Origin: Candidatus Planktophila sp.
Lineage (GTDB): Bacteria > Actinomycetota > Actinomycetes > Nanopelagicales > Nanopelagicaceae
Length of the DNA stretch: 64,000 nt
Assembly: GCA_030681675.1 (NCBI GenBank)
Contig: JAUXRP010000040.1
Coordinates: 62,001-126,000, forward strand
Direction of reading: 5' to 3'
The notes below the pieces were generated by a model. That model saw nothing but the letters and a program-made list of their open reading frames with translations, ran no database searches and was not told the origin of the DNA. Position 1 is the stretch's first letter. Every line of letters begins with the position of its first letter. A program made the translations under genes and the position numbers. Positions 2,268 to 46,914 of this stretch are shown one piece after another.

Positions 2268-3197
2268 GTGAATGAAGTGAGAGATGTTGTCATTGTTGGT
2301 TCAGGCCCGGCCGGATATACGGCTGCAATTTATGCTTCACGTGCTCAATTGAATCCAATTATTTATGAAGGTGCTGTTACAGCTGGTGGTGCCTTAATGA
2401 ACACGACCGAAGTTGAAAACTTTCCAGGTTTTGTCGATGGAATTATGGGTCCTGACTTGATGGAAAATATGCAAAAGCAAGCTAAACGTTTCGGTGCTCA
2501 ATTAATTACCGATGACATTGTAAAGATGGATTTATCTGGTGCAATAAAAACATTAGTGGATGGATCAGGGAACACTGTTAAGTCGCGGTCGGTTATTCTC
2601 GCAATGGGATCTGCTTATCGTGAAATTGGTTTAACAAATGAAAAGCGATTATCCGGACATGGTGTCTCATGGTGTGCAACTTGCGATGGTTTTTTCTTTC
2701 GTGATCAAGAGATCGCTGTCGTTGGTGGGGGTGATTCAGCCGTTGAAGAGGCTACATTTTTAACTAAATTTGCGAGTAAGGTTGTATTAATTCATCGCCG
2801 AGATTCTCTGCGAGCATCCAAAATAATGATTGAACGTGCAGTAGCAAATCCAAAAATTGAATTTCTCTGGAATACGGAGGTTGTAGATGTACTTGGTGAT
2901 TCAAAGGTTTCTGGATTAAAACTACGTAACACCATTGATGGAACCGTAAGCGAACGCTCCTTCACTGGTTTGTTTGTTGCAATCGGCCACATCCCACGTA
3001 GTGAGCTAATCGTCAATCAGGTAACTCTTGATAATGAGGGTTACGTAGAAGTAGATGCTCGCTCTACAAAGACCAATATTCCTGGTGTTTTCGCCTGTGG
3101 AGACCTTGTAGATCACACTTACCGCCAAGCGATCACTGCCGCAGGCTCAGGCTGCCAAGCAGCACTTGATGCTGAAAAGTTTCTGACTCACCACTAA
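2268..3197 (+). CDS. trxB: Thioredoxin reductase TrxB
   Basis: Cytoplasmic NADPH-dependent flavoprotein of 309 residues, the usual length, which reduces the thioredoxin encoded just downstream. Visible motifs are the N-terminal FAD-binding GSGPAGYTAAIYASRA, the redox-active CATC pair inside WCATCDG (about residue 135), the NADPH-binding GGGDSAVEEA, and the C-terminal FAD motif GVFACGDL. The start is GTG with an upstream AAAGGAG about six bases away. The 37-base gap to trxA suggests one operon. Confidence 0.96.
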   Translation: MNEVRDVVIVGSGPAGYTAAIYASRAQLNPIIYEGAVTAGGALMNTTEVENFPGFVDGIMGPDLMENMQKQAKRFGAQLITDDIVKMDLSGAIKTLVDGSGNTVKSRSVILAMGSAYREIGLTNEKRLSGHGVSWCATCDGFFFRDQEIAVVGGGDSAVEEATFLTKFASKVVLIHRRDSLRASKIMIERAVANPKIEFLWNTEVVDVLGDSKVSGLKLRNTIDGTVSERSFTGLFVAIGHIPRSELIVNQVTLDNEGYVEVDARSTKTNIPGVFACGDLVDHTYRQAITAAGSGCQAALDAEKFLTHH

Positions 3198-3234
3198 AGT
3201 TAGCTCACTACATATATAGATCTGGAGATTAAGA

Positions 3235-3558
3235 ATGGCAACGACAAATGTTACGACCGCTACCTTTGATGCAGAGGTATTGAAAAGCTCTACCCCTGTT
3301 TTGGTTGATTTCTGGGCAGAGTGGTGTGGTCCATGTCGGGCGGTCGGTCCAATTCTTGAAGAGATCTCAAATGAGCATGGCGCAAAATTGAAGATCGTAA
3401 AACTCAATACTGACGATGAGTCGGCAATTGCAATTAAGTATGGGATAACTTCCATTCCGGCTATGTACGTCTTTGTCAATGGTGAAGTAGTAAAGACTAT
3501 TGTTGGCGCGCGACCAAAACCTGCCATGCTTAAAGAGCTTGAAAGTTTTATTTCATAA
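3235..3558 (+). CDS. trxA: Thioredoxin
   Basis: Small (107 residue) thioredoxin with the canonical active site WCGPC (about residues 30–34) after VLVDFWAEW, and the cis-proline loop SIPAMYVF. It is the electron carrier reduced by the adjacent TrxB and serves ribonucleotide reductase and protein disulfide reduction in the cytoplasm. A GGAG ribosome-binding site precedes the ATG. The next gene starts 14 bases after the stop. Confidence 0.96.
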   Translation: MATTNVTTATFDAEVLKSSTPVLVDFWAEWCGPCRAVGPILEEISNEHGAKLKIVKLNTDDESAIAIKYGITSIPAMYVFVNGEVVKTIVGARPKPAMLKELESFIS

Positions 3559-3572
3559 ATTGGTCTTGACAT

Positions 3573-4565
3573 ATGTCAGAGTTAAGTGAAGCTCAGATTC
3601 GAAGTTTTCAACAGAGCCGCGGATTAAATGTCACTGGCGTTATTGATGCTGTCACCGAACGGGCACTTGATGAGGCACGATGGAAACTTGGTGATCGCTC
3701 TCTAAATTTACAGGTGCCTCCATTAATGCGGGGTGACGATGTTGCTGCACTGCAATCGCGGTTGACTGAGATGGGTTTTGACTGTGGGCGAGTAGATGGG
3801 ATCTATGGTCTGCGCACTGAAGCTGCGGTGAAAGAGTTTCAACAATCAGTAGGTATCGTCGGCGATGGGAAATGTGGCCCAGGAACAATAATTGCTTTAT
3901 TGCGATTGACTCGAACCGTTTCGGGTGGTGCACCAACTGCGATGCGTGAGAGTGCAACACAACGAAATCGTGGTCCTGCTCTTGCCAATAAAGTTATAGT
4001 TTTAAATCCCGCTGAAGATGACTCGCTGATTTATGATGTTGCTCTGAGAACTGAAGGTAGGTTACTTGCACTAGGTGCATCGGTTTTTTTAACTCGTGGT
4101 GTATCAAATAATCCGACTGAAACTGAACGCATTGCCTTCACAAATCAAAGTAATGCAGATCTTATGATCTCATTTAGTCGCGACAGTTATGTTAATGAGG
4201 TGGCACATGGAGTTGCCACATATTTTTATGGAAGCGATGCACACGGTATTCATTCAATTGTCGGTGAGCGATTTGCCTCATTGGTTCAGCGTGAGATTTG
4301 TGCCCGGACAGATTTAGTTAATTGTCGAACTCATGCGATGACGTGGGATTTATTGCGATTAACACGAGCACCGTCGGTTCAGATTGATCTTGGTTATATG
4401 ACCAGCCCGATTGATGTTGAGAGAATTTCCCGCTCGGATTTTCGCGATGTAATCGCCGAAGCTTTAGTAATCGCAATTCAGCGGTTGTATTTAGCATCTG
4501 AGGATGATGCAAAAACGGGAACACTGCGCATCTCTGATTTACGTAAGGCAGGCATTCGCCGCTAA
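3573..4565 (+). CDS. cwlM: CwlM-like peptidoglycan regulator (pseudo-amidase)
   Basis: The N-terminal half carries two peptidoglycan-binding repeats (about residues 5–45 and 50–110, with DVAALQSRL and GIYGLRTEAAVKEFQ). The C-terminal half (about 140–315) has the Amidase_3 fold order. The zinc ligands of that family are missing: the expected DPGHGG is NPAEDD, SIHAN is SFSRD, and the catalytic Glu region is QIDLGYM. No signal peptide is visible. In mycobacteria the gene after trxC is cwlM, whose product is a cytoplasmic PknB substrate that stimulates MurA and contacts MurJ; position, lost catalytic residues and lack of export signal fit a regulatory role here. That role is inferred from the family, not shown by the sequence. 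Confidence 0.8.
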   Translation: MSELSEAQIRSFQQSRGLNVTGVIDAVTERALDEARWKLGDRSLNLQVPPLMRGDDVAALQSRLTEMGFDCGRVDGIYGLRTEAAVKEFQQSVGIVGDGKCGPGTIIALLRLTRTVSGGAPTAMRESATQRNRGPALANKVIVLNPAEDDSLIYDVALRTEGRLLALGASVFLTRGVSNNPTETERIAFTNQSNADLMISFSRDSYVNEVAHGVATYFYGSDAHGIHSIVGERFASLVQREICARTDLVNCRTHAMTWDLLRLTRAPSVQIDLGYMTSPIDVERISRSDFRDVIAEALVIAIQRLYLASEDDAKTGTLRISDLRKAGIRR

Positions 4566-4606
4566 ATAGTGTTCGGCACGTGCTTAGCGTGTGGCAGACT
4601 TGGACC

Positions 4607-5869
4607 ATGTCCGAAATCACCAATCGCTTTGCAACCGGTGCCCCTCAGAATTTGGAGGAGCGCTTTGCAAGCCGGGCTGCACACATGAAGCCCAGTGAAA
4701 TCCGCTCGCTTTTTGCCGTTGCCTCTCGCCCTGAGATTGTCTCTTTGGCCGGCGGAATGCCAAATCTCTCAGCCTTTCCGATGGGGATGATGGCAGATGT
4801 TGTTCAAAAATTAATCCTCACCAATGGTTCTGAGGCCTTGCAGTATGGAAGCGGGCAGGGCCATCCAAAACTACGCGAGCAGATCTGCGAAGTAATGGCG
4901 CTAGAGGGAATCCGCGCTAACCCCGACGATGTCTTAATTACAACCGGCTCCCAACAGGCCCTTGATTTAATCTCACGAATTTTCATCGATCCCGGCGATG
5001 TTGTTTTGGTTGAAGCGCCTTCATACGTCGGCGCTTTAGGAACCTTTCATCAATACGAAGCCTCGGTGGTCCATGTTGAAACCGACGACTTAGGTTTAGT
5101 GCCTCAAGCTCTTCGTGAGGCGATAATCAATGTCCGTGAAGTTGGACGTAAAATTAAATTTTTATACATGATACCTAATTATCAAAACCCTTCAGGGGTT
5201 TTACTGCCTGCTGAGCGCCGAACTGAGATTTTGAATATCTGTCGCGAGGCTGGGATTTTTGTTGTTGAAGATAATCCTTATGGTCTTCTGGGTTTTGATA
5301 AACCATCACCGAACGCGATGCGGGCTGAAGACTCAGAAAATGTAATTTATCTCGGAACTTTTTCTAAAACAATAGCTCCGGGTCTTCGAGTAGGTTGGGC
5401 GTTAGTCCCGCCCTCATTGAAAGAAAAATTAGTAATTGCAAGTGAGTCCTCAATTTTGTGTCCTTCGAATTTTGCTCAGCTAACTATTTCAAGCTATCTA
5501 GCCGAACAACCTTGGCGAGATCAGATCGCCTCCTTTTGTGATTTATATAAAGTTCGGCGTGATGCAATGCTTGAATCTTTAGATGAGTTTTTTCCGGCTT
5601 CCGCAAAATGGACGAAACCTGGGGGCGGTTTTTATGTATGGGTTACATTGCCACCGGAAATCGATACGAGTGCTTTAATGCCAAAAGCTATCGTTGCAAA
5701 AGTTGCCTACGTTCCGGGCACCGCCTTTTACGCCGATGGTTTTGGTTCGTGGTCGCTGCGCCTTTCGTACTGTTATCCAACTCCGGAGCGCATCCGTGTT
5801 GGTGTAAAAGCTTTGGGAGGGGTTATAAAGACAGAAATGTCACGCCGCGGTAGTGGTGAACTGACTTAA
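4607..5869 (+). CDS. PLP-dependent aminotransferase (2-aminoadipate/MocR-like class I/II)
   Basis: Fold-type I aminotransferase of about 420 residues. Family signatures are SLAGGMPNLSAFP near the N terminus, QYGSGQGHPKLREQI, the PNYQNPSG substrate/PLP loop, VVEDNPYGLL with the PLP-binding Asp, and GTFSKTIAPGLRVGW, whose lysine should form the Schiff base. It resembles 2-aminoadipate or valine–pyruvate-like aminotransferases; the amino donor cannot be read from sequence. An upstream in-frame GTG at 4580 is possible, but the ATG at 4607 is preferred because homologous sequence begins there. There is no clear ribosome-binding site, so translation may be leaderless. The 3' end overlaps parB, on the other strand, by 4 bases. 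Confidence 0.85.
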   Translation: MSEITNRFATGAPQNLEERFASRAAHMKPSEIRSLFAVASRPEIVSLAGGMPNLSAFPMGMMADVVQKLILTNGSEALQYGSGQGHPKLREQICEVMALEGIRANPDDVLITTGSQQALDLISRIFIDPGDVVLVEAPSYVGALGTFHQYEASVVHVETDDLGLVPQALREAIINVREVGRKIKFLYMIPNYQNPSGVLLPAERRTEILNICREAGIFVVEDNPYGLLGFDKPSPNAMRAEDSENVIYLGTFSKTIAPGLRVGWALVPPSLKEKLVIASESSILCPSNFAQLTISSYLAEQPWRDQIASFCDLYKVRRDAMLESLDEFFPASAKWTKPGGGFYVWVTLPPEIDTSALMPKAIVAKVAYVPGTAFYADGFGSWSLRLSYCYPTPERIRVGVKALGGVIKTEMSRRGSGELT

Positions 5870-37110: not shown

Positions 37111-37746
37111 ATGACAATTCAAATTTGCTCACTTGAAGCCGCAGTCGAACGGGCAATCTCATTAACTCAAAGTACAGAACCTCGTGTGATCATTGGATTA
37201 GTGGGAAAGCCTGGCTGCGGCAAATCAACGCTCTCAAACCACCTGTTAAAAAAATTACCAAAAGAGACTACGGCCTTAGTTCCGATGGATGGATATCACT
37301 TAAGTAATTCTCAATTGGCCTTTCTTGGACGTGCAGAGAGAAAGGGAGCTCCAGATACATTTGACTCCAGCGGCTATTCAAATTTAATGCATCGGATTAA
37401 GACCACATTTAATGAGGATATTTACTTTCCAAGATACCACCGAGAAATTGAAGAAGCCATTGCTGCAGATGGGGTTGTCCACCCCCACACGTCACTTGTT
37501 ATAACCGAAGGAAACTATCTACTTTTGAGGAGCGATGGTTGGTCTCAGGTCGCTGAGATGCTTACGGAGTCTTGGTTCATAGAGACCGACCACGACAAAC
37601 GAATGTCGCGGCTTGTGTCAAGGCACATCAAGTTCGGCAAATCACCATCGGATGCACATGCTTGGGCAAACGGCACGGATGCGCGGAATGCCGAGTTAAT
37701 AGAGACCACTCGAGCCAAGGCTGACGTCATTATTAATTTGGATTAA
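37111..37746 (+). CDS. P-loop sugar/nucleoside kinase family protein
   Basis: 211-residue kinase with Walker A GLVGKPGCGKST (about residues 29–40), the phosphoacceptor-site region ALVPMDGYHLSN and a base/substrate motif YFPRYHREIEEA, ending with VIITEGNYLLL-like sequence. This uridine-kinase-like family includes FrcK, encoded with the fructose-type frcBCA transporter. An Rbs/Frc-type transporter lies about 3 kb downstream, beyond a tRNA and several decayed genes. GAGAGG precedes the ATG. Confidence 0.8.
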   Translation: MTIQICSLEAAVERAISLTQSTEPRVIIGLVGKPGCGKSTLSNHLLKKLPKETTALVPMDGYHLSNSQLAFLGRAERKGAPDTFDSSGYSNLMHRIKTTFNEDIYFPRYHREIEEAIAADGVVHPHTSLVITEGNYLLLRSDGWSQVAEMLTESWFIETDHDKRMSRLVSRHIKFGKSPSDAHAWANGTDARNAELIETTRAKADVIINLD

Positions 37747-37770: not shown

Positions 37771-37859
37771 GGAGACGTCGCATAGCCCGGTCGAGTGCGC
37801 CTCACTGCTAACGAGGTAAGGTTTAATCGCCTTCAGGAGTTCAAATCTCCTCGTCTCCG
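37771..37859 (+). tRNA. tRNA-Ser (GCT)
   Basis: Acceptor GGAGACG/CGTCTCC, anticodon loop CTGCTAA (GCT) on a stem CCTCA/CGAGG with an A·C mismatch at the loop-closing pair, long variable arm (AAGG…CCTT), T arm AGGAGTTCAAATCTCCT, discriminator G and no encoded CCA. Its 3' 61 bases are repeated at 44759–44819. Confidence 0.95.
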
Positions 37860-37908
37860 CAGATTAGTTTTAAAAGAGCAAAAGGAACGGTTCCCGCACC
37901 TGGGATTC

Positions 37909-38634
37909 CTACATCAACACAAAAAGATTTCCGTCTTCGCTTCCTATTTTTCGCCCATCTCCAAGATCAATTGATGCTGTAGTGATGTAAAGGGTTGTGG
38001 TGTCTTCACCAACAAAGCAACAGCTAGTAATTTGAGGTACAAGAAGTTGAATTTCATGGGTTTGAATGCCTGCTTCTGAAAATCTTCGCACATGCTGTCC
38101 ACCAAAGAATGCGATCCAAACTCCACCTTCTCGATCGGCGCACATGCCATCTGGAATACCGAATGAGCCTGGAAATTCAATAAAGTTTTTAAAACCAATA
38201 ATTGAAGAACTAGATGCATCAAAATCTGAAACTTGAACTGATTTTTTCCCAGAGTCAATGTAGTACATTTTGGATCCATCAGGATTCCAAGCTAGTCCAT
38301 TTGAAACTGTGACATCATTACAAACCCTCGTAAATCCATGGGAATCAATTCGATACAGCGAACCAGTAGGTGAATTTCCATCACCCATAGTTCCGGCAAA
38401 AAGCACTCCGTTGGGATCGCATTTTGCATCATTCATACGGTTTCCAAGAATTCCAGGCTCAATAGAGAACTTTTTTCTAAATTCTTTCCATCTAGATCGA
38501 CAAGATATAAGCCGTCATCTAAGGCAATCGCTAATTTATCGGTAGTAGTTGGTAAAACAGCTCTAGGCAGGACCTTCACCTAAAGTTGCTTGAATTTTTG
38601 CGGCAACTTCTAAACCTTTAATACTTTTTATCAA
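37909..38634 (-). pseudogene. SMP-30/gluconolactonase-family gene, decayed
   Basis: The C-terminal 175 residues are open (37909–38436: NDAKCDPNGVLFAGTMGD, SNGLAWNPDGSKMYYIDS, GIPDGMCADREGGVWIAFFGG), typical of the SMP-30 beta-propeller lactonases. Upstream, the expected protein continues in other frames: IEPGILGNRMNDAK in frame with the open part, then VLPRAVLPTTTDKLAIALDD shifted, then an N-terminal AAKIQATLGEGPA in a third frame followed by a stop. Thus at least two frame changes and a deletion near the LGEGP motif have destroyed the first third of the gene. It follows the SDR gene on the same strand. Confidence 0.85.
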
Positions 38635-38638
38635 GCTC

Positions 38639-39421
38639 TTAATTCCCTTTCTCGTAACCAAGTCGTGAAAGTAAGCCACCATCTGCTTGAATTGTTGTGC
38701 CAGTTATGAAAGATGCTTCAGGAGACGCGCACCAAGTCAAAATTCTTGCGATCTCTTCCGGCTCTCCCACGTGACCGATAGATTTTCCATCAGTTGGGAA
38801 ACCTAAACTGTTCAATAATTCTGCATCTCGCACCAAATCAGTAGTTGTCATTGGTGTTCTGATGGATCCAGGTGCCACACCAACCACCCGTATGGATTGT
38901 GGATTCAATTCAATAGCTAACTCTGAAGTCAGAGAATTCATTCCACCTTTTGATGCGGCATAGGCAGCATGATTCTTCATCGTTGAATAAGCATGAACAG
39001 ATGAGACATTCACAATGCACCCGCCGCTATTATTTCTAAACAAAGGTAGAGAATGTTTGGAGGTTAGGAAAACTGCACGCAAATTAACATTAATAATTCT
39101 GTCCCAGTCGCTAACGCTGGTTTCCTCGATACCTACCCCATTGGTGGGCAACCCAGCCACATTAAACAAAGCGGCTAATTTTGAATTCTTAAACTCGGCG
39201 AAGACTTTTTCAATATCTTCTGGAACTTCTAAATCACACTTTCGGTAGAGGTTTTTGTTTTCCGAAAAAACCTTTGCATGTGATCCGACATTTTCACTTC
39301 TTTCTAAACCTAGAATCGTTGCTCCGTTATCACTGAGTAATTGTGCAGTTGCGAGCCCAATGCCTGAACCAGCCCCAGTGACAATACAGAATTGACCTTC
39401 CCAATAATTCTCCGAATTCAC
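38639..39421 (-). CDS. SDR-family oxidoreductase
   Basis: Short-chain dehydrogenase of 260 residues. Cofactor motif VTGAGSGIGLATAQLL (about 14–29), NVAGLP, catalytic Ser in VNVSSVHAY and YAASK (Tyr/Lys, about 153–157). The C terminus FITGTTIQADGG is typical. Intact, although the lactonase gene that follows it is decayed. Such pairs often oxidise a sugar to its lactone and open the lactone. There is only a weak ribosome-binding site. Confidence 0.88.
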   Translation of the reverse strand: MNSENYWEGQFCIVTGAGSGIGLATAQLLSDNGATILGLERSENVGSHAKVFSENKNLYRKCDLEVPEDIEKVFAEFKNSKLAALFNVAGLPTNGVGIEETSVSDWDRIINVNLRAVFLTSKHSLPLFRNNSGGCIVNVSSVHAYSTMKNHAAYAASKGGMNSLTSELAIELNPQSIRVVGVAPGSIRTPMTTTDLVRDAELLNSLGFPTDGKSIGHVGEPEEIARILTWCASPEASFITGTTIQADGGLLSRLGYEKGN

Positions 39422-39485
39422 ATCAGGTCTCTCTTTCCTGTTGAACTACTTCTAAGAACTAACAGACTACGCCATTAATGTATGC

Positions 39486-40440
39486 ATGGTCGAATATATT
39501 CAAGGCTGGAAAACAGAAGTACTTAAAAATGATTCTTTAAAAGTATCTGTTATTCCAGAGTTGGGTGCAAAAATTGTGCAAATCAGAGACAAGCAAGCCA
39601 ATTATGAATGGCTATGGGATTACCCAACGTGCCCCATAAGGGCGAGGCAACCAAATGATAATTACGACGAACATGACATCACGGGGTTTAATAAGTGCTT
39701 CCCAAACATCGGGATTAATACTTATCCAGGGGATCCCAATATAACTTATCCGGATTATGGAGAGTTATGGTCTCAAGCCTGGTCATGCCAGAAATCTGAT
39801 AATTCAATTGTCACTACTACCACAGGCAAAGTTTTCTCGTACAAATTTCATCGAGAGATTACATTGAAGAATTGTTCCCTAGTATTTTCATACGTCATCG
39901 AGAATACGGGCCAAGAAAGTTTTAAAGGTTTTTGGTCTGATCATCCACTTTTTCACGCTGTCGAAGGAATGCAGATTCTATTAAGCGGTAATCCGCCAAT
40001 AACCAAGGAGTTTAGTTTTGGCGGTCGAATAGGAAGCGATGGAGTTGATAGTTACTCAGGTCATTTAGACACATACACCTGGCCGAACACGGTGGGAGAG
40101 TCGGGGAGAAGCTATGACATGAGCCAGATAACTTTGGCTGAACCATTAACCGACAAGGTTGTTCTGGCTTCACCCAATGATGGTGAAATTACCCTGTTGA
40201 ATCCGCACCAAAAGTGCGCGGTGCAATTTTCATTTGACCCTCAAGAAATACCATTTGTTGGAATTTAATTTAAAGGCATGGCCCTTTACAGGATAGAAAG
40301 GTCGATGGTTGGCGATCGAACCATCATCGGGTCCAACCGATAAATTAGATGAAACCGATCGGGTGAGTGACACCCCTATTTTTTCATCTGAAAGACCGGT
40401 CACTTTTAGTTTTACGCTCTACTTTGATGCTTTTCTATAA
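39486..40440 (+). pseudogene. Aldose 1-epimerase-like gene, frameshifted
   Basis: The first 260 residues are open (39486–40268) and show the galactose-mutarotase fold (DITGFNKCFPNIG, FKGFWSDHPLFHA, LLNPHQKCAVQFSFD). The frame stops after PFVGI. The next frame then continues the same protein: FNLKAWPFTG, an in-frame TAG where Trp is expected, then LAIEPSSGPTDKLDE, which is the conserved C-terminal motif holding the catalytic glutamate. It runs to a stop at 40440. The gene has thus lost about two bases near 40265 and gained a nonsense change, separating the catalytic end. Confidence 0.85.
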
Positions 40441-40477
40441 CAAAAATTTATAATATTAAAATACTGCAAGAAACCCC

Positions 40478-40523
40478 TTGCTATTTACCTTGCTTAGTCT
40501 AAATTGTAAACCGTGTACAATTT
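40478..40523 (+). promoter_or_regulatory. Promoter and operator of the sugar ABC transporter
   Basis: A -35-like TTGCTA (40478–40483) and a -10-like TAAATT (40500–40505) are 16 bases apart and predict a transcript starting at or next to the GTG at 40513. A 23-base near-palindrome at 40501–40523 (arms AAATTGTA and TACAATTT, two mismatching pairs inside) covers the -10 and the start codon. It resembles LacI/GntR operators. Confidence 0.55.
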
Positions 40524-41568
40524 ACGAATTAAAAAAGGCCAGTCCAAAAACTCCGAAGGATTCTTTTATCGGTTGTTAGCAGTTCCTGAATTAGGCGTGA
40601 TTGTCGCCCTGATTTCATGTGCAGCTATTTTCCAATCCTTTAATAGTGTTTTTCTTTCATCAGAGGTTATGGGATCAATTGTTCAAGCCGTCACTTTCGT
40701 TTCAATCATTGCTGTCGGTCAAGCCTTTCTTTTGATCAGTGGAGTTTTTGATTTATCCGTAGGTGCGGTGGCTGGATTAGTTGCTGTGTCTTCGGGCAAA
40801 TTAATGACAAGTATGGGTTGGCCAGTATGGGCCGGAATTCTAGGTGGCCTTGCACTCGGTGCAGCAATCGGTGCTGTTAATGGATTCATGGTGACACGTG
40901 CCGGAGTTCCGGCCTTTATTCAAACCCTCGGAATGATGTTTGTAGCACAAGGCCTCATCCAAGTAGTTTCAAAAGGTTATCCGGTGTATCCACTCCCGGA
41001 AGTGATGACAACCATTGGCGAAAGCTCATTCTTTTTCACTCTTGGTTGGAATGCACTAATTTGGGTTGCAGTTTCGATTGTTGGCGATTTTGTAATTCGC
41101 AAAACTTCAATTGGGCGAAATCTTTACGTAATTGGTGGAAACCCAGAAGTAGCAAAAATAGTTGGTATCAATGTGCAGAAGTATCAAATGAACTGCTTTA
41201 TTTTAGCTGGAACACTTTCAGCACTTTCAGGAATTCTTGTGATGGCAACTTTATCTGCCGGCGCTCCAAGTATCGGAGGTGGCTGGGAACTCACAGTGAT
41301 CGCAGGAACTGTTGTGGGTGGCGTGAGTTTGTTCGGAGGAGTAGGAACAATCGCAGGTGCGATTATGGGTGTTCTTCTCATTCAGTGTGTCCAAAGTGGG
41401 CTAGTTACAAGTGGTTTAAGCCCAAATTTCCAATTAATCGCCGTTGGATCAATTTTAGTTTTAGCAGTCTTCTTAGATGTTTTCCGTAGAGGTTACAGAA
41501 ACCGCATGCGCAATTCAGAAAAGGTCGAAATCCCAGTCTTTCCTCTCGAGAAAGGGGAAAGTAAGTAG
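40513..41568 (+). CDS. Sugar ABC transporter permease (RbsC/FrcC type)
   Basis: Membrane permease of 351 residues with about ten helices, of the family serving ribose, xylose and fructose importers. LLISGVFDLSVGAVAGLVAV is the conserved loop and GGVSLFGGVGTIAGAIMG the coupling region that contacts the ATPase. The GTG start lies inside the operator and has no ribosome-binding site, so it is probably leaderless. The next gene is the binding protein. Confidence 0.9.
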   Translation: MYNLRIKKGQSKNSEGFFYRLLAVPELGVIVALISCAAIFQSFNSVFLSSEVMGSIVQAVTFVSIIAVGQAFLLISGVFDLSVGAVAGLVAVSSGKLMTSMGWPVWAGILGGLALGAAIGAVNGFMVTRAGVPAFIQTLGMMFVAQGLIQVVSKGYPVYPLPEVMTTIGESSFFFTLGWNALIWVAVSIVGDFVIRKTSIGRNLYVIGGNPEVAKIVGINVQKYQMNCFILAGTLSALSGILVMATLSAGAPSIGGGWELTVIAGTVVGGVSLFGGVGTIAGAIMGVLLIQCVQSGLVTSGLSPNFQLIAVGSILVLAVFLDVFRRGYRNRMRNSEKVEIPVFPLEKGESK

Positions 41569-41631
41569 TTTTTATTCGAGTCTAAGGGAAATAAACAAGT
41601 ATCTACTTAATGAAAGGTTGAAAAGGTTAAA

Positions 41632-42612
41632 ATGAAAAAGAAATTTATAATCGCAACAGTTGCGGCATTCGCACTAGCTGTTCCTGCAATTTTTGTTGGA
41701 ACAAGTGCAAATGCAGCAGTTAGTTATAAGGGCCGTCCAAAGAGCATTTTGTTTGTTCAGCCAATGAAGGATCACCCAGTTCACAGACTTATGCAGGCAG
41801 GACTCCTTGCTGAATGTAAGAAGAAGGGCTTCTATTGCAAGGTTGTCGGAAATGCAAGTGCATCCAACTGGGATGATGTTGGCACATTGCCTCTCGTAGA
41901 TGCAGAGCTTGCAACCAGAAAATGGGGCGGAGTTGCTGTTTATCCAGTAAGCCCAGTTCTGTTCAAGTACGCAGAGAAGCTAGCAAAGAAGGGCTACCCA
42001 ATCATTGGATGGCACGCCATTCCGAAGGCAGGAACAACTTCTTATGTCGCATCCGTTGCTCAGCTAGTTCCTAATGCAGGATCTGGTCCAGCAGATGCAA
42101 TTTGTAAGATTCACGGCAATGTTGGAACTGTTGCAATCACTGAGGGAAGCCTAAATGATGAAGAAAACACCAAGGCAGCAGCTTTCAAAGCACAGCTTGC
42201 TAAGGCATGCCCTGCAATGAAGACAACTGAAATTGGAATCGAGGGGTTTGATCCAACAAAGGCTGTAGCAATTGCAGTTGGAATCCTTTCATCTGACAAA
42301 GACATCGTGGCTGCTTATTCAACAACCGGTAACGGAGCTCAAACCTGGTCACAAGCAGCAGCACAAGCTAACCGTAAGGTGACAATCATCGGTATGGATT
42401 ACATTCGCCAAAACCTAGACTTAATCCGGGATGGAAAAGTTTATGGCGTTGTAGCACAACCGTTGTATGAAGAAACAGCGATGATGGTTCAGCTCTATGC
42501 AAAATTGTTCAAGGGACAAAAGATTAAGTATTCAAATATCTTGCCCTCAACAATTGTTACAAAAGCCAACCTTGCCGCGTACTACAAGATTGTGGATGCA
42601 GCTGGACAGTAA
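41632..42612 (+). CDS. Sugar ABC transporter substrate-binding protein
   Basis: Exported binding protein of 326 residues. The signal peptide has KKK, a hydrophobic core (IIATVAAFALAVPAIFVG) and a likely cut after SANA (about residue 28). The mature protein has the type I periplasmic-binding fold of the RbsB family (SILFVQPMKDHPVHRLMQAG). No lipobox cysteine is seen. The ATG is preceded by GAAAGGTTG. A strong hairpin follows its stop, which may allow a higher level of this protein than of the ATPase. Confidence 0.9.
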   Translation: MKKKFIIATVAAFALAVPAIFVGTSANAAVSYKGRPKSILFVQPMKDHPVHRLMQAGLLAECKKKGFYCKVVGNASASNWDDVGTLPLVDAELATRKWGGVAVYPVSPVLFKYAEKLAKKGYPIIGWHAIPKAGTTSYVASVAQLVPNAGSGPADAICKIHGNVGTVAITEGSLNDEENTKAAAFKAQLAKACPAMKTTEIGIEGFDPTKAVAIAVGILSSDKDIVAAYSTTGNGAQTWSQAAAQANRKVTIIGMDYIRQNLDLIRDGKVYGVVAQPLYEETAMMVQLYAKLFKGQKIKYSNILPSTIVTKANLAAYYKIVDAAGQ

Positions 42613-42625
42613 GTAAATCTGATGC

Positions 42626-42665
42626 ATTACTGCGGTGCGCCTCTTTGTGGGCGTGCCGCAGTAAT
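42626..42665 (+). other. Intercistronic hairpin between binding protein and ATPase genes
   Basis: ATTACTGCGG (42626–42635) pairs perfectly with CCGCAGTAAT (42656–42665). Inside it, CGCC pairs with GGCG around a short loop. No T-run follows, so it looks like an mRNA-stabilising or processing element, not a terminator. Confidence 0.7.
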
Positions 42666-42686
42666 CTCAAAACCAGAAAGCAGTCG

Positions 42687-44210
42687 ATGATGGCCCTAAA
42701 AAGTGTTTTGAAGGTTATAGATCTAAGTAAGAGTTTCGGCAATGTCGATGCCTTGCGCAGGGTCAACTTCAATTTCTTTGAAGGCGAAATTCACGCTGTA
42801 TTAGGGCAAAACGGTGCAGGCAAGAGCACCTTGATAAAGCTACTTACCGGTCTATATGAAACAAGTAGCGCATCCGGTACCTTGATCTTAAATGGCGCTG
42901 AAATTCAACTACACAGCGTTTCAGATGCTCGTCAAAAGGGCATTGGATATGTACCTCAAGAGATTGAAATAGTTGACACCTTAACCGTTGCCGAAAATAT
43001 TTTTGCGGGAAACCTGCCTACAAATAACGGCGTTTTTTCACTTAAGCATATTTTAAAGCTCGCTCAGGAATTAGTTGAGAAGTTTGAACTCAATTTACCT
43101 GTAGCTGATGTGGCTTCAAGTTTGAGTACTGCGCAACGCCAGACGACAATGATTGCTCGCGCACTTGCTTCAAACCCGGCAATTTTACTTCTTGATGAAC
43201 CCACTACTTCGCTATCCAAAGAAGATGCACAAACACTTGCAAAAACAATGGTGGGTTTGCGTGCCAAGAATGTGACAATGATCTACATTACACACAGAAT
43301 TCCTGAAGTACTTAGTTTGTGTGATCGAGCCACAGTACTACGTGATGGTCAAGTCGCCTTAGAGCTTGCAAAAAGCGACTTCAGTACCGAAAAAATAATT
43401 AGCTCTATGATTGGTAAAAGTCTAAACAAAGACAACACCGAGAGTTACAAAGTCATATCTGGGAAAAATATTTTGACGTTGGAAAATATTCACGTTCCTC
43501 GAAGAGGTCCACAAAGCGTCTCGTTAGATGATGTGAATTTAACAGTTAGAGAAGGTGAAATTCTTGGCCTTGGAGGGTTAGTGGGCTCAGGAAGAACCGA
43601 AGTACTAGATTTAATTTCAGGACGAACACCCTTAGCCTCTGGAAAAATTACCCTGAATGGTGAAGTTATGGTAGGAGCTAACCCACAGAAGATGCGTGAT
43701 AAGGGAATAGTTTATTTAACCGAAGATCGCAAAAGAGAGGGTTTGCTTTTTAATTTAAACTTAATCAAGAACACCACTGCTGGTTCCTTAAACTTGTTTT
43801 CGAAATTTGGGTTACTAAACGAGGGCAAAGAGTCAGAGATTGCAGTTGCTGCGATGAAGTCGTTAACTGTAAAAACTAATAGTTACGCGGCAGAACCATC
43901 TCACTTAAGTGGTGGCAACCAGCAAAAAGTATTACTCGCACGAGCGCTCATCAGTAAGCCAAAGATTTTGTTATTGGATGAACCGACTAAAGGTGTTGAT
44001 GTGGGCGCTCGACACGAAATTTATGAGGTCATCCGAAGAGTTCAAGCATCTGGAACTAGCGTAATTGTCGTTGCCTCCGATCTAGACGAACTTTTGTCAT
44101 TAGCAAATCGAGTAGTTGTAATGGCAGGCGGCAAGTCGGTGGATGAATTTGAAAGAGCCGATGGAGACGAAGCAAGAATTCTGAAATTTGGCACAGGAGT
44201 TCTGAGCTAG
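42687..44210 (+). CDS. Sugar ABC transporter ATP-binding protein (RbsA type)
   Basis: Two fused nucleotide-binding domains in 507 residues. Domain 1 has Walker A GQNGAGKSTL and Walker B LLLDEPTTSL. Domain 2 has the degenerate GLVGSGRTEVL, signature LSGGNQQKVLLARAL and Walker B LLLDEPTKGVDVG. This is the standard RbsA/XylG layout. An in-frame TTG at 42645 falls inside the hairpin, so the ATG at 42687 is preferred. It ends the operon. Confidence 0.92.
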   Translation: MMALKSVLKVIDLSKSFGNVDALRRVNFNFFEGEIHAVLGQNGAGKSTLIKLLTGLYETSSASGTLILNGAEIQLHSVSDARQKGIGYVPQEIEIVDTLTVAENIFAGNLPTNNGVFSLKHILKLAQELVEKFELNLPVADVASSLSTAQRQTTMIARALASNPAILLLDEPTTSLSKEDAQTLAKTMVGLRAKNVTMIYITHRIPEVLSLCDRATVLRDGQVALELAKSDFSTEKIISSMIGKSLNKDNTESYKVISGKNILTLENIHVPRRGPQSVSLDDVNLTVREGEILGLGGLVGSGRTEVLDLISGRTPLASGKITLNGEVMVGANPQKMRDKGIVYLTEDRKREGLLFNLNLIKNTTAGSLNLFSKFGLLNEGKESEIAVAAMKSLTVKTNSYAAEPSHLSGGNQQKVLLARALISKPKILLLDEPTKGVDVGARHEIYEVIRRVQASGTSVIVVASDLDELLSLANRVVVMAGGKSVDEFERADGDEARILKFGTGVLS

Positions 44211-44212
44211 TA

Positions 44213-44641
44213 CCTGCCAAAATAAGGCTACAGGCAACAACAGAATTCAAGGTAAGGGTTGTCCTGTTTGTGCGAATAGAGTGATAGTGATTGGGTTCAA
44301 TGATTTGGCAACTTCTAATCCAGACCTTGCATCTCAAATGGTAAACGGAAGCCCTACAAAGGTCTCAGCAAATAGTGGGAAAAGCTTTAAATGGAAATGC
44401 TAAAAGAGCCATACATGGAGCGCTGTTGTTGCGAACTGCTCAACGGGCACGGGTTGCCCATCCTGTGCTGTATGCATGGAAGCGGTCGATCCTCAAAGCA
44501 CTAAAAGACAGTGGTGCGGAATTAGACAACACTTTAATCACAGGAAAACTTGATGGATATTCAGAAGCTTGGGTCCAAAGCCCATATCCTGTAAAGAAGC
44601 TAAAAGATTTAATGGAACTAGTTAGAGCAAGCGAAGAGTGA
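44213..44641 (+). pseudogene. Zinc-ribbon (DUF4379-like) protein remnant
   Basis: Begins two bases after the ATPase stop and has no start. The first frame gives GKGCPVCANRVIVIGFNDLA, then NPDLAS and FKWKC, followed by a TAA at 44401–44403. After that stop the same frame continues KSHTWSAVVANCSTGTGCPS and CA. This is the CxxC…NDLATxxPxLA…W.C…H.W…GCPxC pattern of probable zinc-ribbon (PF14311-type) repeats. A shift then leads into the frame of AWKRSILKALKDSGAELDNT and GKLDGYSEAW, a C-terminal segment ending at 44641. So the gene has lost its N terminus, contains a nonsense codon, and has an internal deletion with frameshift. The 88-residue open frame at 44375–44641 is only the tail. Confidence 0.75.
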
Positions 44642-44758
44642 GTTAAAATTGCCCATATTTTGCCCAAGAATTAGCTTTAGTTGCAGGTATTTGAACCAAT
44701 TAATTGCACTGTAAACTGGTTGAATAAGCGTAGATGAGAGATAAGACAGCCATGCAGT

Positions 44759-44819
44759 CCTCACTGCTAACGAGGTAAGATTTAATCGCCTTCAGGAGTT
44801 CAAATCTCCACATCTCCGC
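44759..44819 (+). repeat. Partial copy of tRNA-Ser(GCT) (direct repeat, possible att site)
   Basis: 58 of 61 bases match 37800–37860: the anticodon arm, variable arm, T arm and 3' acceptor strand of tRNA-Ser(GCT), with changes at the positions matching 37821, 37851 and 37853. The preceding bases (44730–44758) no longer form the 5' acceptor or D arm, so this cannot make a tRNA. Same orientation as the intact gene 7 kb upstream. Confidence 0.9.
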
Positions 44820-44900
44820 TCTGAATGTACGTCAAATTAGTTATGTATAAGCCTTCCCATAGGGTTTTGTGCAGTTAGTAGGAGGCCAGACCGCTAAAGA

Positions 44901-46166
44901 ATGAAGGGAAAGCCAAATTTAATGATTAAGAGCAAACGAAATTTCCCTGATTTTATGTATTTCTATTCACTAATTGACTGGAAGATGCTTGCGATATCAC
45001 CCAGAAAAAGAGCGACTAACAAAGCTCAAACTGTGGCAGATATGGCGACTGCTGCAAAAAAGCGAGTGCCAAAAGTCGTTTTTGATTATGTTGAGGGTTC
45101 TGCTTTAGATGAGATCGGCTATGCACGTTCAGCCGCGGCATATTCAAGAGTGGAATTTAATTGCAAGATTATGCGAGATGTTACGACAGTTGATTCTTCA
45201 GAAGCAATATTTGGTAAGAAAGTGGACTTACCAATTATCTTTGCTCCAACTGGATACACCCGTTTAATGCACCATGTTGGCGAACCAGCTGTAGCAGCTG
45301 CTGCAGCAAATAATAATTTAATTTATACACTTTCAACCATGGGCACTACATCGCCGGCAGAGTTAGCTGCTGCGGTGCCGCAAGTTCATCGGTGGTTCCA
45401 GCTTTATGTAATGCAAAATCGCGAAGATAGTTTGGCGGTTATTAAACAAGCACGCGAAAATGGTTTCCAGGCATTGGTTTTAACGGTGGACACCCCAGTG
45501 AGCGGCCTCCGGCTTCGTGATCTTCGTAATGGATTAACAATTCCACCGAGAATTAGGCTTACAACTGTATTTTCTATTGCGCGCAAACCCATTTGGTGGC
45601 TCAATCTCTTTACAACCAAGAAATTGGAGTTTGCTGCCTTCAGAGGATGGGACAAGTCTTTAGTTGAGTTGGCCGCAACTATCTTTTCACCAAACATTAC
45701 TTTTTCTGATGTTGAATGGCTTCGCAAAGAATGGGAGGGACCAATAATTGTCAAAGGTGTGCAGAGTGTTGCTGATGCGCTTGAGCTGACCAAACTAGGT
45801 GTCGATGGAATTGTCCTTTCAAATCACGGCGGTCGTCAGTTAGATCGTGGCCCAGTACCTTTGGAAATTCTGCCCGAGGTTATTAAAGCCGTAGGAAAGA
45901 AAGTGGATGTATTTATAGATGGCAGCATCATGTCGGGCCAGGATGCCTATGCCGCGATTGCACTTGGAGCAAAAGCAGTTTTTGTGGGGCGCGCCTATCT
46001 TTATGGAGTAATGGCCGATGGCGAACGAGGCGTTGAGAAAGTCATCGAGATTTTGCGTCGCGATTTTGTAAATACCATGGCACTGACTGGAAACCGAACC
46101 CTAAAAGAGGTTCGCGAATCAGGGGCAGTCCTCCCAGGTGCGGTGTTTCAAACTCCTATTCAATAG
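44901..46166 (+). CDS. FMN-dependent alpha-hydroxy-acid dehydrogenase (LldD type)
   Basis: Membrane-associated or soluble flavoprotein of up to 421 residues that oxidises L-lactate or related 2-hydroxy acids. Visible: VFDYVEGSALDE, FMN-binding QLYVMQNRE and LTVDTPVSGLRLRDLRNG, and the active-site SNHGGRQLDRGP (His at about residue 309) with VFIDGSIMSGQDAYAAIALGA and FVGRAYLYG. The start may be the ATG at 44901 or a later one (44922). GGAGG lies 15 bases before 44901. The 3' end overlaps the next gene (other strand) by 11 bases. Confidence 0.9.
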   Translation: MKGKPNLMIKSKRNFPDFMYFYSLIDWKMLAISPRKRATNKAQTVADMATAAKKRVPKVVFDYVEGSALDEIGYARSAAAYSRVEFNCKIMRDVTTVDSSEAIFGKKVDLPIIFAPTGYTRLMHHVGEPAVAAAAANNNLIYTLSTMGTTSPAELAAAVPQVHRWFQLYVMQNREDSLAVIKQARENGFQALVLTVDTPVSGLRLRDLRNGLTIPPRIRLTTVFSIARKPIWWLNLFTTKKLEFAAFRGWDKSLVELAATIFSPNITFSDVEWLRKEWEGPIIVKGVQSVADALELTKLGVDGIVLSNHGGRQLDRGPVPLEILPEVIKAVGKKVDVFIDGSIMSGQDAYAAIALGAKAVFVGRAYLYGVMADGERGVEKVIEILRRDFVNTMALTGNRTLKEVRESGAVLPGAVFQTPIQ

Positions 46167-46854
46167 GGTTTCTATTTAAACTCGTTGAAAGCTTGTCAAG
46201 CAGCGTAAAGGAAATTGCAATCGCCTGGCCGACAAATAGCATTACTAAAACTGTTCCCAATCCAACTTTTCCACCTAATAGGTATCCACCTAAAAGCGCG
46301 AAACACTCAATTACGAATCGAATTTTCCATATTCGAACCCCAGTTCTATCCAATAAGCCAATCATCCACCCATCTCGAGGTCCAGAACCCAGACCACACG
46401 AAATATAGAGCGCAGTCCCGAAACCAACCATTGAGATTCCGCAGACGACCATTAGTAATGAAAGTTCGAAGTTATTTTGTGGTGAAATTATTGTGACACC
46501 TAATTGAAGGGAGGCTGCAAAGAAGACGGTATTAGCAATGGTGCCAAAACCTGGAGTGACTTTTAGAGGAAACCAAATCAAAAGCACAAAGCAACTAACA
46601 ATAAAAAATGCCCATCCAAGTGATATTCCAGCTTGAAGTGAAATACCTTGCGCCAAAACTGTCCATGGCGGATTACCTAAATTAGATTGAACTGATAAGG
46701 AACCGCCAATTCCCATCATAAATAGACCACTGATGAGGATTAGAAATGTTTTAGGTTGGACAGTCCAGTACGTTGGCGCGCACCAAGTAGTTTTAGGCAC
46801 CGCACGTGCGGGCGTGAAGAATTTAATCGCACGCGATAGAGGTGGTGTTCCCAT
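46156..46854 (-). CDS. YczE/YitT-family membrane protein
   Basis: 232 residues with about five to six helices. The segment FMMGIGGSLSVQSNLGNPPW followed by GISLGWAFFIV and the repeat-like GTALYISCGLGSGPRDGWM are the hallmark of the YczE/YyaS/YitT family (two similar halves). Function in bacteria is not established; a small-molecule transport role is possible. Its start is 60 bases from the divergent GlcD-type gene. Confidence 0.8.
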   Translation of the reverse strand: MGTPPLSRAIKFFTPARAVPKTTWCAPTYWTVQPKTFLILISGLFMMGIGGSLSVQSNLGNPPWTVLAQGISLQAGISLGWAFFIVSCFVLLIWFPLKVTPGFGTIANTVFFAASLQLGVTIISPQNNFELSLLMVVCGISMVGFGTALYISCGLGSGPRDGWMIGLLDRTGVRIWKIRFVIECFALLGGYLLGGKVGLGTVLVMLFVGQAIAISFTLLDKLSTSLNRNPIE

Positions 46855-46880
46855 GTGTCCAATCTATTTTCAGAAATTTG

Positions 46881-46914
46881 TTGCGTTGTATCTCAATGGG
46901 TTTATACTTCCAGA
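46881..46914 (+). promoter_or_regulatory. Leaderless promoter of the GlcD-type gene
   Basis: TTGCGT (46881–46886), a 16-base spacer and TATACT (46903–46908) end six bases before the ATG at 46915. This predicts a transcript beginning at the A of the start codon. Confidence 0.65.

Follow-up and report, generated by a model that had tools for sequence, protein, structure and literature searches.

Which gene left the broken zinc-ribbon reading frame that lies beside a partial tRNA in a genome of Candidatus Planktophila sp., and how did it come to lie there? A preliminary description of this locus, within a stretch of 64 000 nucleotides (hereafter the window), had seen in it the remnant of a zinc-ribbon repeat protein of a kind that may travel with mobile DNA, and our analysis supports that interpretation overall. 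The explanation that we consider best, and regard as probable when taken as a whole, is that a now dead gene for a zinc-repeat, GIY-YIG-like protein belonged to an element at tRNA-Ser(GCT) and that the intact relatives of this gene are homing genes.

The relic and the island that holds it

The relic occupies positions 44224–44641 of the forward strand, between the stop codon of an ABC ATPase ORF (44210) and the partial tRNA that begins at 44759, and is a pseudogene retaining the last zinc repeats and the C-terminal tail of a protein in a broken frame. The motifs on which the preliminary description relied were all present on translation: the frame from 44212 reads ...GCPVC...FNDLAT...KWKC, an in-frame stop (44401–44403) and then ..HTW...GCPSC, and the frame from 44213 carries the tail, SILKALKDSGAELDNTLITGKLDGYSEAW..., which runs until the stop at 44641. 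The suggested PF14311-type array was borne out by a six-frame HMM search of the whole genome (1.83 Mb), in which the relic scored 36.7 bits (E 9.7e-9, cut-off 24.5) with one stop read through and was the sole match to PF14311 (DUF4379) above the cut-off. The N-terminal piece alone, with X replacing the stop, scored 40.8 bits against the cut-off of 24.5. The 51-aa tail alone had no match in Pfam, and relatives of it were found in 7 of 150 other genomes of the family (E ≤0.01, best 3.5e-12), as nine matches in open frames of 392–760 aa. Because these relatives recur in seven genomes and all nine are, by reading, zinc-repeat proteins, the resemblance of the tail goes beyond chance.

The nearest orthologue is an intact gene of 714 aa in genome G192 (locus L229), with 79 % DNA identity to the relic over 44224–44471 (248 bp) and 72 % identity to the window over 44471–44819. 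With four candidates per genome scored, G192 was the only other genome to carry the coding part of the relic at that DNA threshold among 135 genomes of the genus, the relic's own included. Compared with this gene, the relic has three lesions, namely loss of the 5′ part before 44224, a deletion of ~170 bp and the one in-frame stop. The 5′ truncation falls at a junction (44211–44224) that reaches to 13 bp past the ABC ATPase stop, homology to G192 beginning at 44224; of the extent first proposed, 44213–44641, the end stands and the start does not. An N-terminal piece with the end of one DUF4379 repeat and most of the next (44224–44471, + strand) is followed by the tail of the GIY-YIG-like domain (44472–44641, + strand). 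Alignment to L229 places the ~170 bp gap between them, at 44471/44472, where the frame shifts and the core of the domain is taken out, in agreement with the earlier view of the tail as a further C-terminal domain with a deleted middle. On both sides of this missing middle, the relic is homologous to intact DUF4379-repeat, GIY-YIG-like proteins of the Nanopelagicaceae. The gene probably encoded a zinc-repeat protein that cut DNA. The window copy, with the catalytic core deleted, does not itself qualify as a GIY-YIG member and is a dead relic, for which none of the activities proposed below is possible.

The tRNA fragment noticed earlier proved to be real. Positions 44759–44819 (+ strand), 117 bp beyond the end of the relic, repeat the last 61 nt of tRNA-Ser(GCT) at 95 % identity and form the attR side of an island whose left end (attL side) is the intact tRNA-Ser(GCT) gene at 37771–37860 (+ strand; ARAGORN, and Rfam tRNA at 47.5 bits). 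Genome G109 matches the window up to 37865 and again from 46903 with ~15 bp between, which constitutes an empty site; as G109 is continuous across these two points, the window contains a 9-kb insert made up of a cassette, the relic, attR and two more genes. Both a tRNA 3′-end direct repeat and an empty site in a relative, the marks of a tRNA-integrated island, are therefore present. Of the flanking proteins in G109, two immediately upstream share 96.6 and 97.7 % identity with those of the window and the first downstream shares 91 %. A kinase-like gene (37111–37746) immediately before tRNA-Ser, inward of those two upstream genes, shares just 70 % identity with its counterpart in G109, and the exchanged block may therefore reach upstream of the tRNA.

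The cassette (37866–44210) is absent from G109. Its ORFs were assigned by Pfam to an SMP-30/gluconolactonase-like protein, a short-chain dehydrogenase, an ABC permease, a periplasmic binding protein and an ABC ATPase, together with one ORF, between the dehydrogenase and the permease, that has no Pfam family; the families found suggest a role in sugar utilization. The SMP-30 ORF (37909–38436), beside the tRNA, matches Pfam profile positions 88–245 of 246, its counterpart in G218 being 307 aa long, and may also be broken or truncated. Beyond attR lies a second block absent from G109 (44820–46902), which holds an FMN-dependent dehydrogenase (44901–46166) and a membrane protein (46156–46854) that is YitT-like at a score below the Pfam cut-off. 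At E ≤1e-30, a homologous cassette was detected in only one further genome of the genus (134 compared), G218 (contig C100), where the sequence after the ATPase gene is unlike that of the window and there is no adjoining tRNA, a complete tRNA-Ser lying 13 kb further along the same contig. For these reasons the cassette and the relic probably have different histories and were joined at 44211–44224. No match to the tyrosine recombinase family PF00589 was found anywhere in the window, and the two such matches in the same genome are both on other contigs.

More tRNA-Ser(GCT) 3′ fragments were observed, by reading, between successive apparent sugar-gene blocks in other genomes of the genus (L230, L233 and L234), which suggests repeated cassette insertion at this tRNA. 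At another locus (L240 1–5886, contig G218:C67), five ORFs of 489, 219, 114, 468 and 377 aa directly follow a complete tRNA-Ser(GCT) and are possibly another element at the same tRNA site. No Pfam family was found for any of the five (at E limits of 0.001 for the 219-aa ORF and 0.01 for the rest), and the idea of a CapR-like protein and an integrase after this tRNA was dropped on that account.

Intact relatives and their C-terminal domain

PF14311 is patchy in the family, with matches in 11 of 151 genomes at E ≤1e-4, the relic's own included. Our scan of genome contigs yielded 21 loci, 20 actinobacterial and one filed as Betaproteobacteria, and that of viral contigs one locus; three plasmids with homologues were found by tblastn. 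Among the scanned loci, 19 of 20 ORFs with the C-terminal motif have four to nine CxxC knuckles and that of L078 has two, and a stricter pattern gave one to nine whole repeats in 20 ORFs, L229 included. The invariance of W, C, H, C and C in the repeat alignment was forced by the search pattern and was not used as evidence. The C-terminal domain takes a more divergent version in G034 and G120, and G011 has three repeats without it. Candidatus Planktophila versatilis MMS-IA-79 has two intact relatives. A single tRNA-Val island (L074) was seen to hold two zinc-repeat nuclease genes in tandem (2710–4251 and 4244–5767).

Whether such proteins carry a nuclease-like C-terminal domain, as had been proposed, received a mixed answer from profiles. 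On the intact relatives, the Pfam families GIY-YIG (PF01541) and T5orf172 (PF10544) stayed below their curated cut-offs (E 0.016–0.16; at best 15.5 bits versus 22.6 and 16.1 versus 20, respectively), and for this reason the domain is named GIY-YIG-like here and not filed as a Pfam member. The proposal held in other respects. The PHROGs family phrog_681, 'endonuclease', matched one whole intact protein at E 1.1e-55 and two C-terminal domains alone at E 3.8e-13 and 3.7e-14. Residues Y19, R40, H44 and E67, which we take to be the GIY-YIG catalytic positions, are invariant in all eight C-terminal domains aligned, and an AlphaFold2 model of a 396-aa relative (mean pLDDT 85.8) has the order beta-beta-alpha-beta-alpha at residues 291–351, so that model and alignment together present the GIY-YIG fold with its Tyr, Arg, His and Glu. 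When residues 291–351 were compared using VIA-align, similarity was found to Slx1 (Z 4.8–5.3), At-HIGLE (5.2) and I-TevI (3.7), and GIY-YIG nucleases occupied ranks 9–16 for the C-terminal part; these scores are modest, and Z <8 may reflect merely a common arrangement. When the C-terminal domain was used in a profile search of the PDB, most matches were to designed ankyrin proteins and were taken as chance, and the trypanosome mitoribosomal proteins found by Foldseek with the zinc repeats have a fold in common with them, with no function implied. Neither NCBIfam nor PADLOC contained a substantial match to the two family proteins searched.

The preliminary description had called these proteins of unknown function, which was too modest. 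Phage T5orf172 homing endonucleases, a GIY-YIG subfamily, possess repeated CapR/DUF723/DUF4379 zinc-finger domains according to the passages of PMC10448857 that deal with them (the text prints DUF4397, one legend 4379), and the intact relatives have this same layout, a DUF4379-type array with one terminal GIY-YIG-like domain. Unlike the phage enzymes, the relatives are cellular, several of them lying in tRNA islands of freshwater actinobacteria, and they have up to nine repeats and a nuclease domain below the Pfam cut-offs, the window copy being dead. A comparable order of repeated zinc domains and then a C-terminal nuclease is reported, in a section of PMC12350094, for phage group II introns with CapR/DUF4379-like repeats and an EDxHD/Vsr-like homing endonuclease, although those enzymes are intron-borne and have another nuclease domain. 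With regard to the island, tRNA-bounded gene cassettes are described in the main text of PMC7771536 for Ca. Actinomarinales, which are likewise streamlined aquatic actinobacteria with partial tRNA direct repeats and ABC transporter genes beside some cassettes, whereas the words zinc and endonuclease are absent from that main text. Tycheposons of Methylophilaceae, as outlined in portions of PMC10872708, are cargo islands at tRNA genes with a tyrosine recombinase. The window holds a cargo island at a tRNA too, but with a zinc-repeat nuclease relic, and was not filed as a tycheposon because it lacks a PF00589 match. The parts of our explanation are thus already known, as tRNA cassettes of streamlined actinobacteria (PMC7771536, main text) and as T5orf172-type homing genes. 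Our literature search, mostly judged by title and with subscription literature thinly covered, found no title dealing with nucleases of this kind in the tRNA islands of freshwater actinobacteria. The present comparison ties a Pfam 'DUF' protein family to GIY-YIG-like nucleases in cellular mobile elements.

Probable attachment arms, tRNA sites and the explanations weighed

The spacer between the relic and the tRNA fragment (44642–44758) is a probable integrase-arm region of attR, with TTGCCC-type direct repeats at 44649–44666. Its 117 bp are homologous in G120, G169, G166 and G247 and degenerate in G192. In a pattern search confined to selected loci, the TTGCCC-type pair was found in six genomes, these five, with the G192 pair degenerate, and the window's own, at an equal spacing of 92 bp before the 61-nt tRNA-Ser 3′ sequence, or 96 bp before a fixed point inside that sequence by an alternative measure. 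Such constancy of distance is as expected of an integrase arm, and the repeats may represent its sites. The 3′ sequence in G192 is part of a complete tRNA-Ser gene beginning 88 bp beyond the stop codon of the nuclease gene; there (L229 7360–7538), the nuclease gene and the degenerate arm lead into the complete tRNA-Ser(GCT) at the usual distance, and perhaps the tRNA fragment was restored to a full tRNA. Genomes G034 and G120, of different genera, have in common a 1618-bp block of 99.75 % identity, which runs from ~140 bp before the nuclease gene into the arm, as far as the G034 contig end. No similarity was found between the two stretches beyond this block, upstream included, and the cross-genus identity could be due to misbinning.

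The earlier expectation that intact homologues would sit at tRNA sites is true for some of them. A library of 81 tRNA/tmRNA sequences was compared with 24 family loci, the window included, and tRNA 3′-end pieces of at least 24 nt and at least 93 % identity were counted, a rule fixed after the matches were seen. Such fragments occur at 7 of the 24 family loci and in none of 20 control windows, which were evenly spaced 20-kb windows of one genome (G079), six of them with a complete tRNA. The Fisher p value was 0.011 for all loci, 0.003 for loci of at least 15 kb (4/8) and 0.008 without the window and the viral contig (3/6), the family loci varying in length and relatedness and the control being small. 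The script identified fragments in the window, L073, L074, L075, L076 and L081, and L064 was then included manually, since its fragment had been reported as a tRNA by ARAGORN and was therefore itself part of the library; the 89-nt tRNA-Leu called in L052/L064 was rejected as an intact gene, comparison with L073 showing it to be the fragment. The intact tRNA of L081 is not on the contig. Some loci are not independent: a single genome contributed both L064 and L066, a single bin both L067 and L072, and the genes of L080 and L081 differ very little. Not counted under this rule were a 16-nt tRNA-Lys piece in L079, an internal tRNA piece of 35 nt where the L078 contig ends and two weak matches in control windows, one of 21 nt at 90 % and one internal at 83 %. 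Seventeen family loci had no counted fragment, ten of these being contigs <10 kb; a complete tRNA or tmRNA with no fragment was found in L066, L071, L080 and L084.

Five tRNA-flanked islands with intact relatives (L064, L073, L074, L075 and L076) carry PF00589 tyrosine integrase genes. The integrase-bearing islands measure ~6–8 kb, and in the first four of those named the nuclease gene lies in the island interior, away from the fragment. Two further candidate integrases had no Pfam family, one an ORF of 75 aa on the far side of the L081 fragment and the other the 468-aa ORF of L240. Pieces of tRNA-Leu 5′ sequence (23–29 nt, 93–100 %) were also observed at L064 14283–14309, L073 8620–8642 and L065 4257–4285; those of L064 and L073 are on the opposite strand, 165–175 bp from the intact tRNA-Leu at the island start, and for L065 a complete tRNA was not found on the contig.

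We propose that the relic gene was once carried by a DNA element that had inserted at the tRNA-Ser(GCT) 3′ end, where the tRNA repeat and the empty site are seen, and that the integrase of this element has presumably since been lost. What now separates the relic from the tRNA is a putative sugar-transport cassette. The gene has lost its 5′ part, and its nuclease core would have been removed in a separate deletion, the lesions being observed and their order presumed. In the intact proteins, the zinc repeats would bind a long DNA target and the GIY-YIG-like domain would cut the bound target site-specifically, after which recombination repair would carry the nuclease gene, along with adjacent DNA, into the locus that was cut. 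This amounts to homing, and such a gene would often be housed in integrative elements and at their attachment arms. Mobility is suggested by the tRNA 3′ fragments and integrases at family loci, by the patchy presence of the family and by the block common to G034 and G120, and homing by the prfB-side and phage copies and by the published phage enzymes of like layout. Precise target-site insertion was not seen at the presence/absence loci compared. On this explanation, the window records how a sugar cassette bounded by tRNA sequence builds up and decays in a planktonic bacterium of fresh water, and the dead nuclease gene marks a place where island DNA is exchanged.

Judging from sequence comparison, we lean towards a mobile homing-type nuclease, rather than an anti-phage nuclease, as the nature of the intact relatives. 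The interior position of the gene in L064, L073, L074 and L075 speaks against homing, as ordinary cargo could lie there, and the relatives might indeed be defence cargo, element-borne nucleases that cut phage or rival-element DNA, with the window copy a discarded defence gene. This would suit the intact G192 copy, which comes immediately after a restriction pair of McrBC type (PF10117, E 1.1e-53), the satellite-like size of the integrase-bearing islands, and the T5orf172 nuclease Odn, which PMC10448857 describes, in the part concerned, as turned to phage-satellite conflict. Defence nevertheless appears possible rather than likely, as the best PADLOC E value was 0.034 (two proteins searched, island ORFs annotated in part, so that linked defence genes may lie elsewhere in the islands) and phages themselves have homologues, as expected of selfish genes; tblastn returned 76 phage records, from Salmonella, Vibrio, Dickeya and Klebsiella phages among others, and the annotation of some is GIY-YIG or another endonuclease. 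The choice between homing and defence is testable because intact relatives exist, two of them in P. versatilis MMS-IA-79.

The gene adjoins the attR arm or a tRNA in the window, G120, G192 and, at tRNA-Arg, G109, and the block common to G034 and G120 unites it with part of the arm, as if the nuclease were mobility machinery of the element that cuts, for example, at or near the tRNA arm for cassette exchange by recombination. We consider this improbable, given that the four islands with an interior gene, off the fragment, have a tyrosine integrase, and that the prfB-side copy described below has no tRNA fragment. Only slightly less doubtful is an extension of homing in which the zinc-repeat nuclease and the tRNA arm, moving as a unit, make up the end module of cassettes in streamlined freshwater actinobacteria, the nuclease cutting cassette-free or rival tRNA loci and the window preserving a fossil end module beside a sugar-transport cassette; were this true, cassette turnover at tRNA genes would be partly homing-driven and not the work of the integrase alone. 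That the remnant is an ordinary chromosomal gene, decayed beside the tRNA fragment by coincidence, is very improbable. It is the single such relic in its own genome, as coincidence would allow, but its downstream spacer and fragment are common to the intact copy in G120, and tRNA 3′ fragments are commoner at family loci than in control windows.

Copies at the prfB site and in phages

The second intact copy of P. versatilis MMS-IA-79 (L066 8319–10412) lies directly before prfB, a gene name given by reading. At this site, both flanks were matched in 4 of 14 other genomes of the genus and the prfB side only, at the threshold used, in the other ten. The flanks are ~50 bp apart in G061 and 4.8–5.0 kb apart in G097, G016 and G040; the 5 kb in G097 (L265; flanks 99–100 % identical) include genes for a type II/IV secretion-type ATPase (T2SSE) and T2SSF and may be read as a tad/Flp pilus cluster. 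The pattern could be nuclease-linked replacement of a pilus locus, and it fits a gene that settles at exchange boundaries. The left boundary of this freestanding copy extends into the neighbouring gene.

In Salmonella phage GEC_vB_GOT, the homologue is located between neck and head-tail genes, on the opposite strand. This region had 231 matching records and was covered to at least 80 % in 41; among the 60 of the 231 matches listed, 35 cover 73 %, in two pieces spanning ~1.93 kb versus 2.70 kb. No endonuclease is named among the features of those 35 records, a few of which are without any annotation, and the span and annotations suggest that the piece absent from them is the homologue gene. The phage relatives, as far as these alignments go, look like freestanding homing genes.
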